Shown here one piece after another: positions 34,502-41,477 of a stretch of DNA of 64,000 bases. Source of the stretch: Gemmatimonas groenlandica. Its GTDB lineage: Bacteria > Gemmatimonadota > Gemmatimonadetes > Gemmatimonadales > Gemmatimonadaceae. Position numbers and translations under genes: made by a program. Positions within the stretch are counted from its first letter, which is position 1; every line of letters starts with the position of its first letter. The notes beneath the pieces were generated by a model, which worked only from the letters and a program-made list of their open reading frames with translations, was not told where the DNA came from and did not search any database. The stretch lies in assembly GCF_013004105.1 (NCBI RefSeq), contig NZ_CP053085.1:3100001-3164000 (forward strand), given 5' to 3'.

Positions 34502-34580
34502 GCCCAAAGCTGCGGGCAATCTGGCTGCTCCGACAGGGGCTTGGCGACTGGCGCCAGCACTGACAGTCGCGAGCTCTTTG

Positions 34581-34697
34581 GTTCACGCGAAGGGCGCGAA
34601 GTCCGCGAAGAGACGCGAAGAACAGCAAAAGAAAAGAAAAATATTCAGTTGCTGTTCTTCGCGTCTCTTCGCGGCCCTTCGCGAGCTTCGCGTGAAC
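34581..34697. repeat. Long intergenic palindrome, family B copy 1
   Basis: Arms of about 48 bases: GTTCACGCGAAGGGCGCGAA at the left end and, at the right end, TTCGCGAGCTTCGCGTGAAC. The complement is nearly perfect, and the AT-rich loop is about 20 bases. It lies 14 bases past the stop of the anti-sigma gene and before the M20 dipeptidase start. Copy 2 is at 37309-37420, in the same orientation, and shares the preceding word GCTCTTTG. Confidence 0.85.
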
Positions 34698-34711
34698 CAG
34701 CAGCGTATCGG

Positions 34712-35491
34712 CTACAGCGCCGCCAGCAGCGCCACCCGCTCCCGTGTACTCACCACCACGCCACCGGGCGCTTCGACCGTGACCGCGAACATCACCGCGC
34801 CGCCCACGGGCACGCGCGCGTTGATCGGCACGAACACTTCGGTGGCCCCGGGCGGCACGTCGAACACGCCACCGTCGACGGGATACCGCTGATCGCGCGT
34901 CTTGTCGAAGATCCACAACTGATACTGCCACCGGCGCGTGTCGTTCGACTTGAGCCCGATCAGACGCATCACGCCGCGTTGCGCGCTGGTACTCCACACC
35001 ACGTCCCCGCTGGCGCCGATGGCGGTGGAATCGGCGGTTGGCGCCCAAGCAATGCGGGTGATCGCCGAATCGACCGCCAACAGTGAGTCGCGCACCCACG
35101 AGGCAGCCGCCGACGCCGACGCGGCGGAGGGTACCATCGCGACAACGGCAGATGGCTTGGCCGGTCCGCGTGCCCACAGCGCAAGCATGGCCGCGGCGGC
35201 CAACCAGCCGCCCCACACCGCGAACGATCGGCGCGTGCGGGGTGATGCCGCGACGGTCAATGGCGCGCTCACGGGCGGCACCGGTGGCAGCACCACGACG
35301 GTGTTGTACGGCGCGAATGTGGGTTTGAGCGGCACGATCACCTCGCCCGCGGCAATGACACGTTCGGCAACGCCCGGCGGCAGCGCATCCTGCGCCGACA
35401 TCGACTCCGCCGCCAGCGCGGCCGTGATTTCACCGATCAGCAGCTCATCCCGAGTCGCGATGTCCGGCACCTCGTTCTCCTTCCCGCTCAT
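34712..35491 (-). CDS. Anti-sigma factor, RskA-type
   Basis: 259 residues. One membrane helix lies near 88-107 (FAVWGGWLAAAAMLALWARG). The exported C-terminal half (about 125-255) is an RskA-type domain: YQLWIFDKTRDQRYPVDGG, FDVPPGATEVFVPINARV and FAVTVEAPGG are its hallmarks. The N-terminal cytoplasmic part has no cysteines, so it lacks the zinc anti-sigma motif and must hold the sigma factor in another way, as in RskA. It overlaps the sigma gene as ATGA. The fasciclin gene is divergent, as in the mycobacterial SigK-RskA-MPT70 arrangement. Confidence 0.88.
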   Translation of the reverse strand: MSGKENEVPDIATRDELLIGEITAALAAESMSAQDALPPGVAERVIAAGEVIVPLKPTFAPYNTVVVLPPVPPVSAPLTVAASPRTRRSFAVWGGWLAAAAMLALWARGPAKPSAVVAMVPSAASASAAASWVRDSLLAVDSAITRIAWAPTADSTAIGASGDVVWSTSAQRGVMRLIGLKSNDTRRWQYQLWIFDKTRDQRYPVDGGVFDVPPGATEVFVPINARVPVGGAVMFAVTVEAPGGVVVSTRERVALLAAL

Positions 35492-37253: not shown

Positions 37254-37308
37254 GGCTGGAACTGACCGCGCGGCCACGGGTACCGCGCTGACGGTTGATG
37301 GCTCTTTG

Positions 37309-37420
37309 GTTCACGCGAAGGGCGCGAAGGGCCGCGAAGGGCGCGAAGAACAACAAAAGAAGAAATTATTGTTGCTGTTCTTCGCGTCTCTTCGCGGCCC
37401 TTCGCGAGCTTCGCGTGAAC
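37309..37420. repeat. Long intergenic palindrome, family B copy 2
   Basis: About 112 bases, with the same arms as copy 1: GTTCACGCGAAGGGCGCGAA on the left and TTCGCGAGCTTCGCGTGAAC on the right, plus an AT-rich loop. It lies 55 bases past the fasciclin gene stop, in the 350-base convergent gap before the TonB receptor gene. This gap also holds the palindrome at 37504; I see no gene in it. Confidence 0.85.
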
Positions 37421-37503
37421 GACGAGCCTATCATCGAATCGGCCTCCATCAGACATCTCAACCAATGGCACCGCCAAACACAATCCGCGGCTCTTTCAGT
37501 GTT

Positions 37504-37602: not shown

Positions 37603-39729
37603 CTAGAACTCCGCGCTCAACGTCGCGAACACCGCGCGCGCCGGTAGCACGAAGTAGCGCACGCGCCCCGACCCCGACACCGCACCGCTCGCGAACTTCT
37701 GATTGTCGCCAAGGTTCGCGCCGCGCACGGTGAGTGCATATCGGCCCAGTGTAGCCCGCCCCGACGCATCGACCGTGTAGTATTCAGGCAGCCTGCGATC
37801 GGCACTGCTGGTGTTATCCAGATACGCCTTCGACTGATAGCGCCCTTCCACGCTCACCATGAAGCGGTTCGTCGGCGAGAACTCAACGCGATGCGACGAG
37901 ATGAACGCCGGCGTGAGCAGCGGCGTCACGTTGCGCCGTACCACCGGCGTGCCGCGCGAGGAATCGGTGAACTGCGCGATACGGTTCTGACTCCACGTGG
38001 CGTTGCCGGCGAGCACCAAACGTGAGATCCCGCGATACGCCGCATCCACCTCGATACCACGGCGGTAGCTGTTGCCCACGTTCCGACGTAGAATCGAGCC
38101 CGAAGCGGTGGGCGCACCGATCCGCGCGATGTCGTTGCGGAAATCCATGCTGTACAGATTCGCCGACACATCCATCGTCGCGCGCGACAGCGTGATACCC
38201 AATTCGGCGTCGCGCACCGACTCCGGCTTCACCCGCGTGAAATCGCCGTAGTCGGCCACATTGCCGCTGTTCAAATCATCGTCGCCAGCGAACAGATCGT
38301 TGCGCGCCGGTTCCCGACTCGTGATGCCGTACGACGCGTAGGTGGAAAGACCCGTGGCCAGCTGGTACGTGACGCCCGCCTTCGGATTGAAGAACATCCA
38401 ATCGACGCTGCGCTCGTCGATACCGGCGTTGGCGTCGGGCTCGTAGCGGAACTTCGCATAACGTCCCTGCAGGTCGGCAAACCATCGCGCCCGGCCAGCG
38501 TCGAGCGACAGCTTGGCGAACGCACTGGCGTCCTGCTTGTGCCCGGTGTTGTCGTACAGCGTAGTCGAAGGCTGGAAATAGCCACGGTGCGCGCGCTGAT
38601 ACGTATTCGCGTTGATGCCCGTGTTCACACGCAGCGCACCACGCTCTACGTTGTACGCGCTCGTGACGCCATACCACGTGTGCGCCAGGTTGAAGCGATA
38701 GCGATCAGGGAGCTCGATGTAGTCGTAGTTGCCGCTGGCTGAGTTGCGGTACACCGTGGTGCTCACCGACCCGCCGTTCTGCAGCGCGCGCGTATACGCC
38801 AACGACACCATCTGCTGGCCGAACTTGTCGCGCTCGTCGGGCTGCAGCGGATTGTAGCGGCGGTTCGTGGCCAGCTGTTCCAATGTGGCGCCGGTATACG
38901 AGAGCGTATCGGCCAGCAGCCCCACCAGCGTGGTCAGCTTGACCACGTCGCGCGCGCCGAACCATCCGGCACCAACGAAGGCCGAACGGCCCATCACACC
39001 ACTATGATCGCGGTAGCCGTTGGTGCGCAGCGCACTGGCGCGGCCGTACACAGCGAATTTGCTATCGGTCAGCCCCGAGTTGAATGACGCACTCACCCGC
39101 TGTGCGCCGTACGATCCCATCTGCAGCTGCACGTCACCGCCGGCATCGGGCCGTGCCACCGGCATCGTCTCGAAGTTGACACTGCCCGCGAACGACGCCG
39201 TGCCTGCCGTACTCGTGCCCACACCACGCTGCACCTGCACCGACTGGACACTCGACATCAAGTCGGGAATGTCAGCAAAGTACAGCACCTGATCTTCCAT
39301 ATCATTCAACGGGACGCCGTCGAGGGTGATATTGATGCGCGTCTGGTCGAGGCCGCGGAGGCGGAGGTAACTGTATCCCCACAGCGTACCCGTCTCCGTA
39401 TGCGACGTCATCGAGGGCGCCGCGTTCATGAGCAGCATGGGCGCATCTTGCCCGAAGTGCCGTTGCGTGATGGCAGCGCGCCCGATGGTCGTTTGCGAGA
39501 TCGGCGCCTGCTCGTTGGCGCGAATGGCGCGGACCAGCACGCCTTCGATGCGACGCACCGAGTCGGCCTTGGCAGCGGCCGAGGCGGAAACCTTGGTGCT
39601 GTCGGGACGGGACTGGGCGCCGAGCGTGCCAGCGGAAACAGTCTGGAGGGTAGCGCTGAGGACAGCGCTCAGGGTGGCGACACAAAGTCGCCGCGTGCGC
39701 CATGGGCGCGCGATTGCGTGCGGATACAT
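37603..39729 (-). CDS. TonB-dependent outer-membrane receptor, TPP-riboswitch controlled
   Basis: 708 residues. An exported signal (RRLCVATLSAVLSATLQTVSAG) is followed by a plug domain (about 60-190) with APMLLMNAAPSM, YLRLRGLDQTRINITLDGVPLND and VQVQRGVGTSTAG, then a 22-strand barrel ending in the aromatic VFATLSAEF. It takes up a substrate across the outer membrane with TonB energy. A TPP riboswitch directly upstream and the divergent PnuC-type transporter and kinase genes make thiamine the likely substrate. The Shine-Dalgarno stretch AGGGAG is part of the riboswitch 3' end. No TonB or ExbB gene is nearby. Confidence 0.92.
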   Translation of the reverse strand: MYPHAIARPWRTRRLCVATLSAVLSATLQTVSAGTLGAQSRPDSTKVSASAAAKADSVRRIEGVLVRAIRANEQAPISQTTIGRAAITQRHFGQDAPMLLMNAAPSMTSHTETGTLWGYSYLRLRGLDQTRINITLDGVPLNDMEDQVLYFADIPDLMSSVQSVQVQRGVGTSTAGTASFAGSVNFETMPVARPDAGGDVQLQMGSYGAQRVSASFNSGLTDSKFAVYGRASALRTNGYRDHSGVMGRSAFVGAGWFGARDVVKLTTLVGLLADTLSYTGATLEQLATNRRYNPLQPDERDKFGQQMVSLAYTRALQNGGSVSTTVYRNSASGNYDYIELPDRYRFNLAHTWYGVTSAYNVERGALRVNTGINANTYQRAHRGYFQPSTTLYDNTGHKQDASAFAKLSLDAGRARWFADLQGRYAKFRYEPDANAGIDERSVDWMFFNPKAGVTYQLATGLSTYASYGITSREPARNDLFAGDDDLNSGNVADYGDFTRVKPESVRDAELGITLSRATMDVSANLYSMDFRNDIARIGAPTASGSILRRNVGNSYRRGIEVDAAYRGISRLVLAGNATWSQNRIAQFTDSSRGTPVVRRNVTPLLTPAFISSHRVEFSPTNRFMVSVEGRYQSKAYLDNTSSADRRLPEYYTVDASGRATLGRYALTVRGANLGDNQKFASGAVSGSGRVRYFVLPARAVFATLSAEF

Positions 39730-39735
39730 CGATTG

Positions 39736-39822
39736 GACTCCCTACGCCGGTACGAGCCGGATCAGGTTCTACGGGACTCTCTCAGCCAACGCGCACTGGC
39801 GGCGCTGGCACCCCGGTCATGT
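39736..39822 (-). promoter_or_regulatory. TPP riboswitch (THI element)
   Basis: The minus strand reads GGGGTGCC, then GCTGAGAGAGTCCC, then GAACCTGATCCGG and CCGGCGTAGGGAGTCC. These are the conserved TPP aptamer blocks: the CTGAGA pyrimidine-sensing loop and the ACCTGAT ... GCGTAGGGA pyrophosphate-sensing arm, in the right order and spacing. The last block contains the ribosome-binding stretch AGGGAG, 8 bases before the receptor ATG at 39729. Control is therefore probably at translation: TPP binding would hide the ribosome site. Confidence 0.95.
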
Positions 39823-39851
39823 GCGGTGAACCCTAATTAGCTTTGGCGTTC

Positions 39852-40523
39852 ATGACCAGTACGGAGTTCCACCTCCTGTCCGAGCCCTGTGCCTGGCTCG
39901 TCGCGCACGGAAGCTCCTGCGCGGAGCTCCTCGGCTTCATCACGGGTGTGCTCAACGTGTGGCTGGTCACGCGTGAGAACATCTGGAGCTGGCCACTTGG
40001 CGTGCTCAACGCCGGATTCTACGTGGTCGTGTTCGCCCGCACCGGTCTCTATTCCGACACCGGCCTGCAGGTGGTGTATCTGGTGTTGTCGCTGTACGGC
40101 TGGTGGCATTGGCTGCGGGGTGGCCCAAGCCAAAAAGCAGTCGTCGTCACGCGCACCACGCGTCGTACCGCGCTGATCATGACGGCCATCGCACTCGTGA
40201 CGTGGGTGTCCCTGGCCACCATTACGCGGCGGCTGCCCGGTGCCGCGCTGCCGTGGCTCGACGCGGCGCTGGTGTCGATCAGTCTCGTGGCGCAGTACAT
40301 GATGACGCGCAAACTCCTCGAGAACTGGTTGCTCTGGATCGCCGTCGACGTGGTCTACGTTGGTCTGTTCATCAACCGGCAGCTCCCGCTCACGGCGGTT
40401 CTCTACGCCGTGTTTCTGGTGCTCGCCATCATCGGCTACGTGCAATGGCATCGATCGGCGGCGCGGACGCGCCTCGCGAACGCTCCCGCGAACTCACCCG
40501 AGCACTCACCCGCGTCGTCCTGA
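39852..40523 (+). CDS. PnuC/PnuT-family vitamin transporter, probably for thiamine
   Basis: About 223 residues from ATG 39852; a TTG at 39843 is an alternative. About seven helices are seen. The motif TRENIWSWPLGVLNAGFYVVVF with TGLYSDTGLQVVYLVLSLYGWWHW is the core of the PnuC family (nicotinamide riboside) and its PnuT branch (thiamine). ENWLLWIAVDVVYVGLFINR is the second family motif. The TPP riboswitch is on the other strand just upstream and the partner kinase is downstream, so thiamine is favoured over nicotinamide riboside, by context. The two promoters must lie in about 30 bases around TAATTAG. Confidence 0.88.
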   Translation: MTSTEFHLLSEPCAWLVAHGSSCAELLGFITGVLNVWLVTRENIWSWPLGVLNAGFYVVVFARTGLYSDTGLQVVYLVLSLYGWWHWLRGGPSQKAVVVTRTTRRTALIMTAIALVTWVSLATITRRLPGAALPWLDAALVSISLVAQYMMTRKLLENWLLWIAVDVVYVGLFINRQLPLTAVLYAVFLVLAIIGYVQWHRSAARTRLANAPANSPEHSPASS

Positions 40524-41044
40524 CCGGGTCGGAGTCGGTGGGCAAGACCACGCTCGGCGCGCAGCTGGCGGCGCGCTTCGGCGTAGCGTGCGTGCCGGAG
40601 TTCGTGCGCGACTATGCCGCGGCCAAGGGGGCGCCGCTCGACTTTCGCGACCATGGCCCCATCGCCAAGGGGCAGATGGCTCTCGAAGACGCGAACATCG
40701 CCGCCGCCACCGCCCGCGGCGACGCGCTACTGCTGCAGGACACCGATTTGGTCAGCACCGTCGTGTACTGCCATCACTACTTTGGCCGCTGCCCCGAGTT
40801 CATCGAGCAAGCGGCCATCGCGCGCCGACCCACGCACTACCTGCTGCTCGATATCGACGTCCCCTGGATTGCCGACGGCATCCGCGACCGTGGGGAGCAG
40901 CGCGACGAGGTGCAGGCCCTCTTTCGCGAGACGCTGGCGCGATTCGACGCGCCGGTTACCGTTGTGCGTGGCAAGTGGGATGAACGACTGGCCACGGCCG
41001 CCGCACTGATCGACGTTCTCCTCGACACCCACCGACATGGCTGA
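40445..41044 (+). CDS. NadR-like P-loop kinase, likely vitamin-salvage kinase
   Basis: About 199 residues from ATG 40445, overlapping the transporter gene by 79 bases; no later good start precedes the P-loop. Residues 28-36 form the Walker A loop GSESVGKTT, followed by CVPEFVRDYAAAKG, ALLLQDTDLVSTVVYCHHYFG and YLLLDIDVPWIADGIRDRG, all matching the kinase half of NadR. No nucleotidyltransferase domain is attached. NadR-type kinases phosphorylate nicotinamide riboside; next to a TPP-linked transporter the substrate may be thiamine, trapping it after import. That is an inference from the gene neighbourhood. It overlaps the DUF6526 gene by 8 bases. Confidence 0.85.
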   Translation: MASIGGADAPRERSRELTRALTRVVLTGSESVGKTTLGAQLAARFGVACVPEFVRDYAAAKGAPLDFRDHGPIAKGQMALEDANIAAATARGDALLLQDTDLVSTVVYCHHYFGRCPEFIEQAAIARRPTHYLLLDIDVPWIADGIRDRGEQRDEVQALFRETLARFDAPVTVVRGKWDERLATAAALIDVLLDTHRHG

Positions 41045-41477
41045 TAAGACTCAGAACTTCGCGAATCATGGGCAATTCATGCCCATGTACCATTTCTTCA
41101 CCGCTCCGCTCTCGATGATTTTCTTGATCTGGAGCGTGTGGCGAGCCCTGACGATCCGGGACGTGGAGACGCACTACATGCTGGTCGGCGCACTGGCGCT
41201 GTTCGGGGTCGTCACGGTGTCGCGTCTGTCGCCACTCCGCGCGCAGGATCGCCTCATCCGCCTCGAAGAGCAGCTGCGCTACTCCCGCCTGCTGCCGGCC
41301 GACCTCGCCGCCCGTGCGCAGGCCGCCTTCTCGCCGCGCCACTACATCGCGCTGCGCTTCGCGAGCGACGCCGAGCTAGCGTCGATGGTGGAGATGGTGC
41401 TCAAGAATCCGGCGCTCAAGGGCAAGGAGATCAAGAGCCAGATCAAGACGTGGCGCCCGGACACCTTCCGCGTGTGA
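41037..41477 (+). CDS. DUF6526-type membrane protein
   Basis: 146 residues. QNFANHGQFMPMYHFFTAPLS at the N-terminus leads into two helices (MIFLIWSVWRAL and YMLVGALALFGVVTVSRL). A basic cytoplasmic tail follows with IRLEEQLRYSRLLPADLAARAQAAFS and LRFASDAELASMVEMVL, which is characteristic of DUF6526. Its function is unknown. It overlaps the NadR-like kinase gene by 8 bases and may be part of that transcript. The RmlB-like gene follows 22 bases later. Confidence 0.75.
   Translation: MADKTQNFANHGQFMPMYHFFTAPLSMIFLIWSVWRALTIRDVETHYMLVGALALFGVVTVSRLSPLRAQDRLIRLEEQLRYSRLLPADLAARAQAAFSPRHYIALRFASDAELASMVEMVLKNPALKGKEIKSQIKTWRPDTFRV

Follow-up and report, generated by a model that had tools for sequence, protein, structure and literature searches.

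A predicted thiamine salvage locus with a NadR-like kinase in Gemmatimonas groenlandica

Which vitamin is handled by a PnuC-family carrier and a NadR-like kinase that are encoded beside a riboswitch of the thiamine pyrophosphate (TPP) type? This question is raised by a locus of Gemmatimonas groenlandica, which we analysed within a window of 64,000 nucleotides (RefSeq assembly GCF_013004105.1, contig NZ_CP053085.1, positions 3,100,001 to 3,164,000). An earlier note, made from the sequence alone, had described the locus as a thiamine module and had proposed, as a guess, that its kinase phosphorylates thiamine. Our results indicate that the locus is very likely a salvage module for thiamine (vitamin B1) whose kinase makes thiamine monophosphate (TMP); we infer the substrates, the product and the direction of regulation. 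It is also likely, with slightly less confidence, that the kinase represents an unrecognised thiamine kinase family, which arose from the ribosylnicotinamide-kinase (RNK) fold of NadR, is the sole source of TMP for many Gemmatimonadota and Acidobacteriota that are thiamine auxotrophs, and has been misnamed as an NAD-pathway NadR or an AAA ATPase. The features of the locus are listed in Table 1.

In the proposed mechanism, the TonB receptor would import thiamine over the outer membrane into the periplasm, and facilitated diffusion through the PnuT-type carrier would equilibrate it across the inner membrane. The NadR-RNK-like kinase would then convert thiamine to TMP, trapped in the cell, and ThiL would carry out the final step from TMP to TPP; the kinase would thus stand in for ThiE, ThiK or TPK as the supplier of the ThiL substrate. 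TPP bound to the aptamer would lock the ribosome-binding site in the closing stem and turn off receptor translation, while at low TPP the site would be freed and the receptor made.

Table 1. Features of the predicted thiamine salvage locus, in window coordinates
Feature	Position	Strand	Basis
TonB-dependent outer-membrane receptor, 708 aa	37603..39729	-	PF07715 plug and PF00593 barrel
TPP riboswitch aptamer (RF00059), leader to the receptor gene	39722..39825	-	Infernal match
AGGGAG ribosome-binding site	39738..39743	-	Sequence; 3' strand of aptamer closing stem
12-bp block TAATTAGCTTTG (+) / CAAAGCTAATTA (-), candidate shared promoter or operator	39834..39845	.	Conservation; between aptamer and transporter start
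PnuT-type transporter (predicted), 223 aa from ATG	39852..40523	+	PF04973, E 3.9e-56
NadR-RNK-like P-loop kinase, predicted thiamine kinase, 199 aa	40445..41044	+	AAA_28, E 1.8e-33
DUF6526 protein	41037..41477	+	PF20136; overlaps kinase stop

The riboswitch and the receptor gene

A search of the whole window with cmscan (Infernal) bore out the TPP aptamer that the earlier note had read on the minus strand. The RF00059 match was the only above-threshold Rfam match in the window, covered the full model (positions 1-105) from 39825 to 39722, and scored 63.3 bits (E 4.4e-10) against a curated cut-off of 54.3 bits; no second TPP riboswitch match was found elsewhere in the 5,179,092-base genome. The AGGGAG site lies in the 3' end of the aptamer, as had been claimed, and is followed after 8 nt by the receptor ATG at 39729. 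Orthologous aptamers were present at related loci, and across 14 aligned loci AGGGAG was invariant and followed by ATG or GTG at comparable spacing. TPP binding would be expected to sequester this site and to repress the receptor gene. Folding of the aptamer strand alone did not recover the structure (z 1.29), so that the aptamer call rests on the covariance model and on conservation.

The plug and barrel domains confirmed the receptor as a TonB-dependent protein, and it is probably a thiamine receptor. We separately inspected 20 riboswitch loci, mostly from genomes in which the carrier-kinase pair is located elsewhere, and in 18 of them the TPP riboswitch stood directly 5' of an orthologous receptor gene; the riboswitch thus still leads the receptor where the pair is remote. 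The remaining two loci belong to genomes in which genes of thiamine synthesis lie close by (ThiE in G019, and ThiC and ThiE in G176).

The carrier, the kinase and their gene order elsewhere

The transporter is a PF04973 membrane protein whose open reading frame opens at TTG 39843, with ATG 39852 as the likelier start. It shares this family with the nicotinamide-riboside PnuC transporters of E. coli, Neisseria (4QTN) and phages, but in a tree built without a characterised PnuT (Shewanella woodyi) or PnuX it fell on a separate side from them, among TPP-linked carriers (Shimodaira-Hasegawa-like approximate likelihood ratio test, SH-aLRT, 90). This separation from PnuC, within a comparison that covered TPP-linked homologues, is in line with the PnuT assignment of the earlier note, and we regard the protein as a putative PnuT-type thiamine carrier. 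Facilitated diffusion is the reported mechanism of PnuT (title of Jaehme et al. 2018, cited in PMC7221760), which would leave phosphorylation as the step that keeps thiamine in the cell.

The kinase frame ends at 41044, and its likely but uncertain start, ATG 40445, lies inside the 3' end of the transporter gene (79 bp overlap). The protein carries a P-loop domain of the ribosylnicotinamide-kinase type, and its AlphaFold model (mean predicted local distance difference test score, pLDDT, 93.5) was closest to NadR kinase domains (8x7f, 6gyf and 1lw7, with Z of 22.7, 21.7 and 20.2, respectively), followed by thymidylate kinases (Z 18.4 and less). As the earlier note had stated, the nucleotidyltransferase part is missing: the NMN (nicotinamide mononucleotide) adenylyltransferase (NMNAT) domain was absent, and TIGR01526 was matched by its C-terminal part only, with 85.5 bits against a cut-off of 341. 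The protein also gave no match to PF04263, the TPK catalytic domain, and the domain search matched AAA_28 rather than the APH family (PF01636).

Compared with the RNK domain of NadR (1LW7, 6GYE, 8X7F), the window's kinase has the same fold and the same catalytic-type residues (Walker A, Glu31, Arg34, Asp78-Thr79, Asp123 and Arg126, numbered as in P0002). It differs in having no NMNAT or DNA-binding part, in its thiamine gene context, and in a signature of four residues. Tyr111 was found in 135 of 136 kinase homologues and in none of 12 NadR domains, and Ser83 in 134 of 136 versus 1 of 12; Asp127 and Leu81 were near-fixed in the homologues and differed in the NadR domains. In the tree, a branch with a support of 99 set 105 kinases, including that of the window, apart from NadR; the outliers L057 and L058 and the long-branched Miltoncostaea NadR were placed with less certainty. 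Three kinases from loci labelled Kuenenia, Methylococcaceae and Chloroflexi (L126, L160 and L151, respectively) nested within those of Gemmatimonadota or Acidobacteriota, and their contigs are probably mis-binned. Two Acidobacteriota genomes (G200 and G221) each contained two full-length kinase copies on separate contigs.

The kinase gene adjoined the carrier gene in 49 of the 56 loci from the phylum Gemmatimonadota and, in the wider set of 80 loci, almost always. Loci at the genus level shared the divergent arrangement of the window. Elsewhere in the same bacterial family the genes were convergent (L064, L065, L067, L068 and L078) or ran in one direction in the order riboswitch, receptor, carrier and kinase (L038 and L077). 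This one-direction order was common in Acidobacteriota and some other records, with the receptor at L144, L145, L147, L148, L153, L158, L160, L165, L167-L169, L174-L177, L187, L189, L191, L196 and L197, and in the form riboswitch, carrier and kinase, with no receptor between, at L130, L179 and L192. Altogether, a TPP riboswitch lay on the same strand 5' of the kinase, with or without the receptor, at about 25 loci beyond the window. Four Desulfovibrionaceae loci (L156, L166, L171 and L172) had the carrier-kinase pair with no riboswitch or receptor match and with ThiE elsewhere, and unrelated genes flanked the pair at L156 and L172.

Modules of this kind were already known, as the earlier note had stated for Bacteroidota. 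Bacteroides has the TPP-controlled thiamine salvage genes OMthi, PnuT and Tnr3, the last a TPK (PMC5613172), and the window module, from a member of the Gemmatimonadota rather than the Bacteroidota, resembles this set in its riboswitch, TonB receptor, PnuT-type carrier and phosphorylating enzyme. Unlike Tnr3/TPK, the enzyme of the window is a NadR-like P-loop kinase lacking PF04263, and it would act together with ThiL. The reaction predicted for it is that of E. coli ThiK, in which thiamine is converted to TMP feeding ThiL, but ThiK has the APH fold and the window's kinase belongs to AAA_28. The same design under a TPP riboswitch was also seen on a Sphingomonas plasmid (L202, 391-4549), where riboswitch, TonB receptor, APH-type kinase and PnuC follow in one direction; this operon suggests an APH-type thiamine kinase as the partner, unlike the NadR-like kinase of the window. 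Gene sets similar to that of L202, with no riboswitch match, were found in Acinetobacter (L203) and Novosphingobium (L200). The open-access literature, with subscription literature outside the scope of the search, yielded no thiamine kinase assignment for NadR-like proteins, and so the non-orthologous, predicted NadR-like thiamine kinase is the new component of an otherwise known kind of riboswitch-controlled salvage.

Thiamine pathway content and the alternatives

Family searches of the G. groenlandica genome found ThiL but no ThiC, ThiE/TenI or TPK (PF04263), APH-type ThiK being outside these searches. Since ThiL needs TMP and ThiE is missing, the cell must either import TMP or make it with a thiamine kinase. 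Thiamine synthesis is of low prevalence in Gemmatimonadales (PMC10469786). We examined the distribution of the kinase in 200 Gemmatimonadota genomes and an independent set of 198 Acidobacteriota genomes. Among the Gemmatimonadota, the kinase occurred in 40 of 44 genomes without a ThiE match and in 16 of 156 with one; TPK was found in none of the 200 (control genomes were positive), and ThiL in all of them, above the cut-off in 186. Of the 24 Acidobacteriota genomes without ThiE, 11 had the kinase, 9 had TPK, 4 had neither and none had both, while the 174 with ThiE included 10 with the kinase and 2 with TPK. When only the family of G. groenlandica was counted, the ratios were 38:2 versus 14:15 (p 1e-5), and the pattern recurred across genera. 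Among 40 kinase-bearing genomes found by a wider scan, seven had ThiE above the cut-off, including the four of the Desulfovibrionaceae. Taken together, the riboswitch-led operons in other phyla, the absence of ThiE and TPK with ThiL kept, and the complementary distributions in two phyla support the thiamine kinase that had been guessed at, and this activity is a well-supported prediction from genomic evidence.

As the main alternative, the carrier and kinase could serve nicotinamide riboside, with PnuC and a ribosylnicotinamide kinase yielding NMN and with the TPP-controlled receptor nearby by chance or for some other reason. Family names and the closest solved structures do point to NAD-pathway proteins, and phage pnuC-nadR pairs are common. 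However, NAD salvage predicts neither the complementarity with ThiE nor the mutual exclusion with TPK, the TPP operons recur in other phyla, and the kinase lacks the NMNAT part and has a distinct signature and clade. Nicotinamide riboside salvage is disfavoured because of the genome distributions of the kinase, ThiE and TPK, and we consider it improbable. The distributions bear differently on a kinase that would act as a pyrophosphokinase, taking thiamine directly to TPP as TPK does, for the kinase replaces TPK in Acidobacteriota that lack ThiE. ThiL, however, is kept in kinase-bearing genomes without ThiE, including that of G. groenlandica, and would then idle; moreover, the NadR and thymidylate kinase fold family transfers single phosphates. 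The chance of such an activity therefore appears similarly small. A thiamine precursor as the substrate, either hydroxymethylpyrimidine (HMP) or hydroxyethylthiazole, would fit known systems in which genes for precursor salvage, too, are under TPP riboswitches, but is least probable of all, in that G. groenlandica has no ThiE with which to join the precursors.

Several points weigh against salvage of thiamine through this kinase, beginning with the limit to the searches for ThiK given above. An NCBIfam equivalog model names the transporter PnuC (nicotinamide riboside). The genomes are related and so are not the independent observations that Fisher tests assume, which makes the p values of 2e-24 (kinase, Gemmatimonadota) and 1.4e-15 (kinase or TPK, Acidobacteriota) too strong. 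Four Gemmatimonadota genomes (88-91% complete) and four Acidobacteriota genomes had neither ThiE nor the known alternatives; the latter (G300, G311, G329 and G419, with no ThiE, TPK or kinase match) possibly have a further type of thiamine kinase, import TPP, or are incomplete. G. groenlandica was described as needing no added vitamins, although yeast extract was required for growth (PMC7844134). Finally, because the transporter and kinase genes diverge from the riboswitch, it would directly control only the receptor in the window, and the carrier and kinase lie outside the aptamer transcript.

If thiamine phosphorylation by this family is true, a missing step of vitamin B1 metabolism would be filled, given that ThiL-bearing genomes without ThiE or TPK have nothing annotated that makes the ThiL substrate. 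The widespread pair of PnuC and NadR-like ATPase would then be re-annotated from vitamin B3, the pathway to which automatic annotation would assign the window's kinase, to vitamin B1, and would provide a genomic marker for B1 dependence in phyla that are abundant but poorly cultured. This would also suggest that kinases of no fewer than three unrelated folds (TPK, APH-type and NadR-like) came to serve PnuT-type facilitators in metabolic trapping.

The intergenic gap and neighbouring elements

The earlier note had placed the riboswitch in a gap of about 120 bases from which the transporter and kinase genes diverge; we measured approximately 122 bp from the receptor ATG to the transporter ATG, with the aptamer inside. 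It had also proposed that TAATTA may serve both promoters. This motif (39835-39840) does fall within the 12-bp block of Table 1, which was kept in most Gemmatimonas-type loci despite variable flanks, was absent from all other loci compared, and includes TAGCTTTG (+), 6 bp 5' of the transporter ATG; a scan for sigma-70-like promoters scored none there. The sequence TAnnTTTG, a promoter element of Bacteroidota, is present at 39838, but with 3 occurrences against an expected 3.6 it is not enriched in the window, and no general promoter type is therefore claimed.

The DUF6526 gene is likely co-transcribed with the kinase gene. It was found 3' of the kinase at 25 loci of the Gemmatimonas type but nowhere else among the loci compared, and for this reason was set aside as a genus-level neighbour rather than a member of the module. 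Elsewhere in the window, dispersed intergenic repeats rich in GAAG/CGCGAAG were observed at 34557-34729 and 37285-37452; the two copies are 79% alike over 106 and 77 nt, and each contains inverted repeats.

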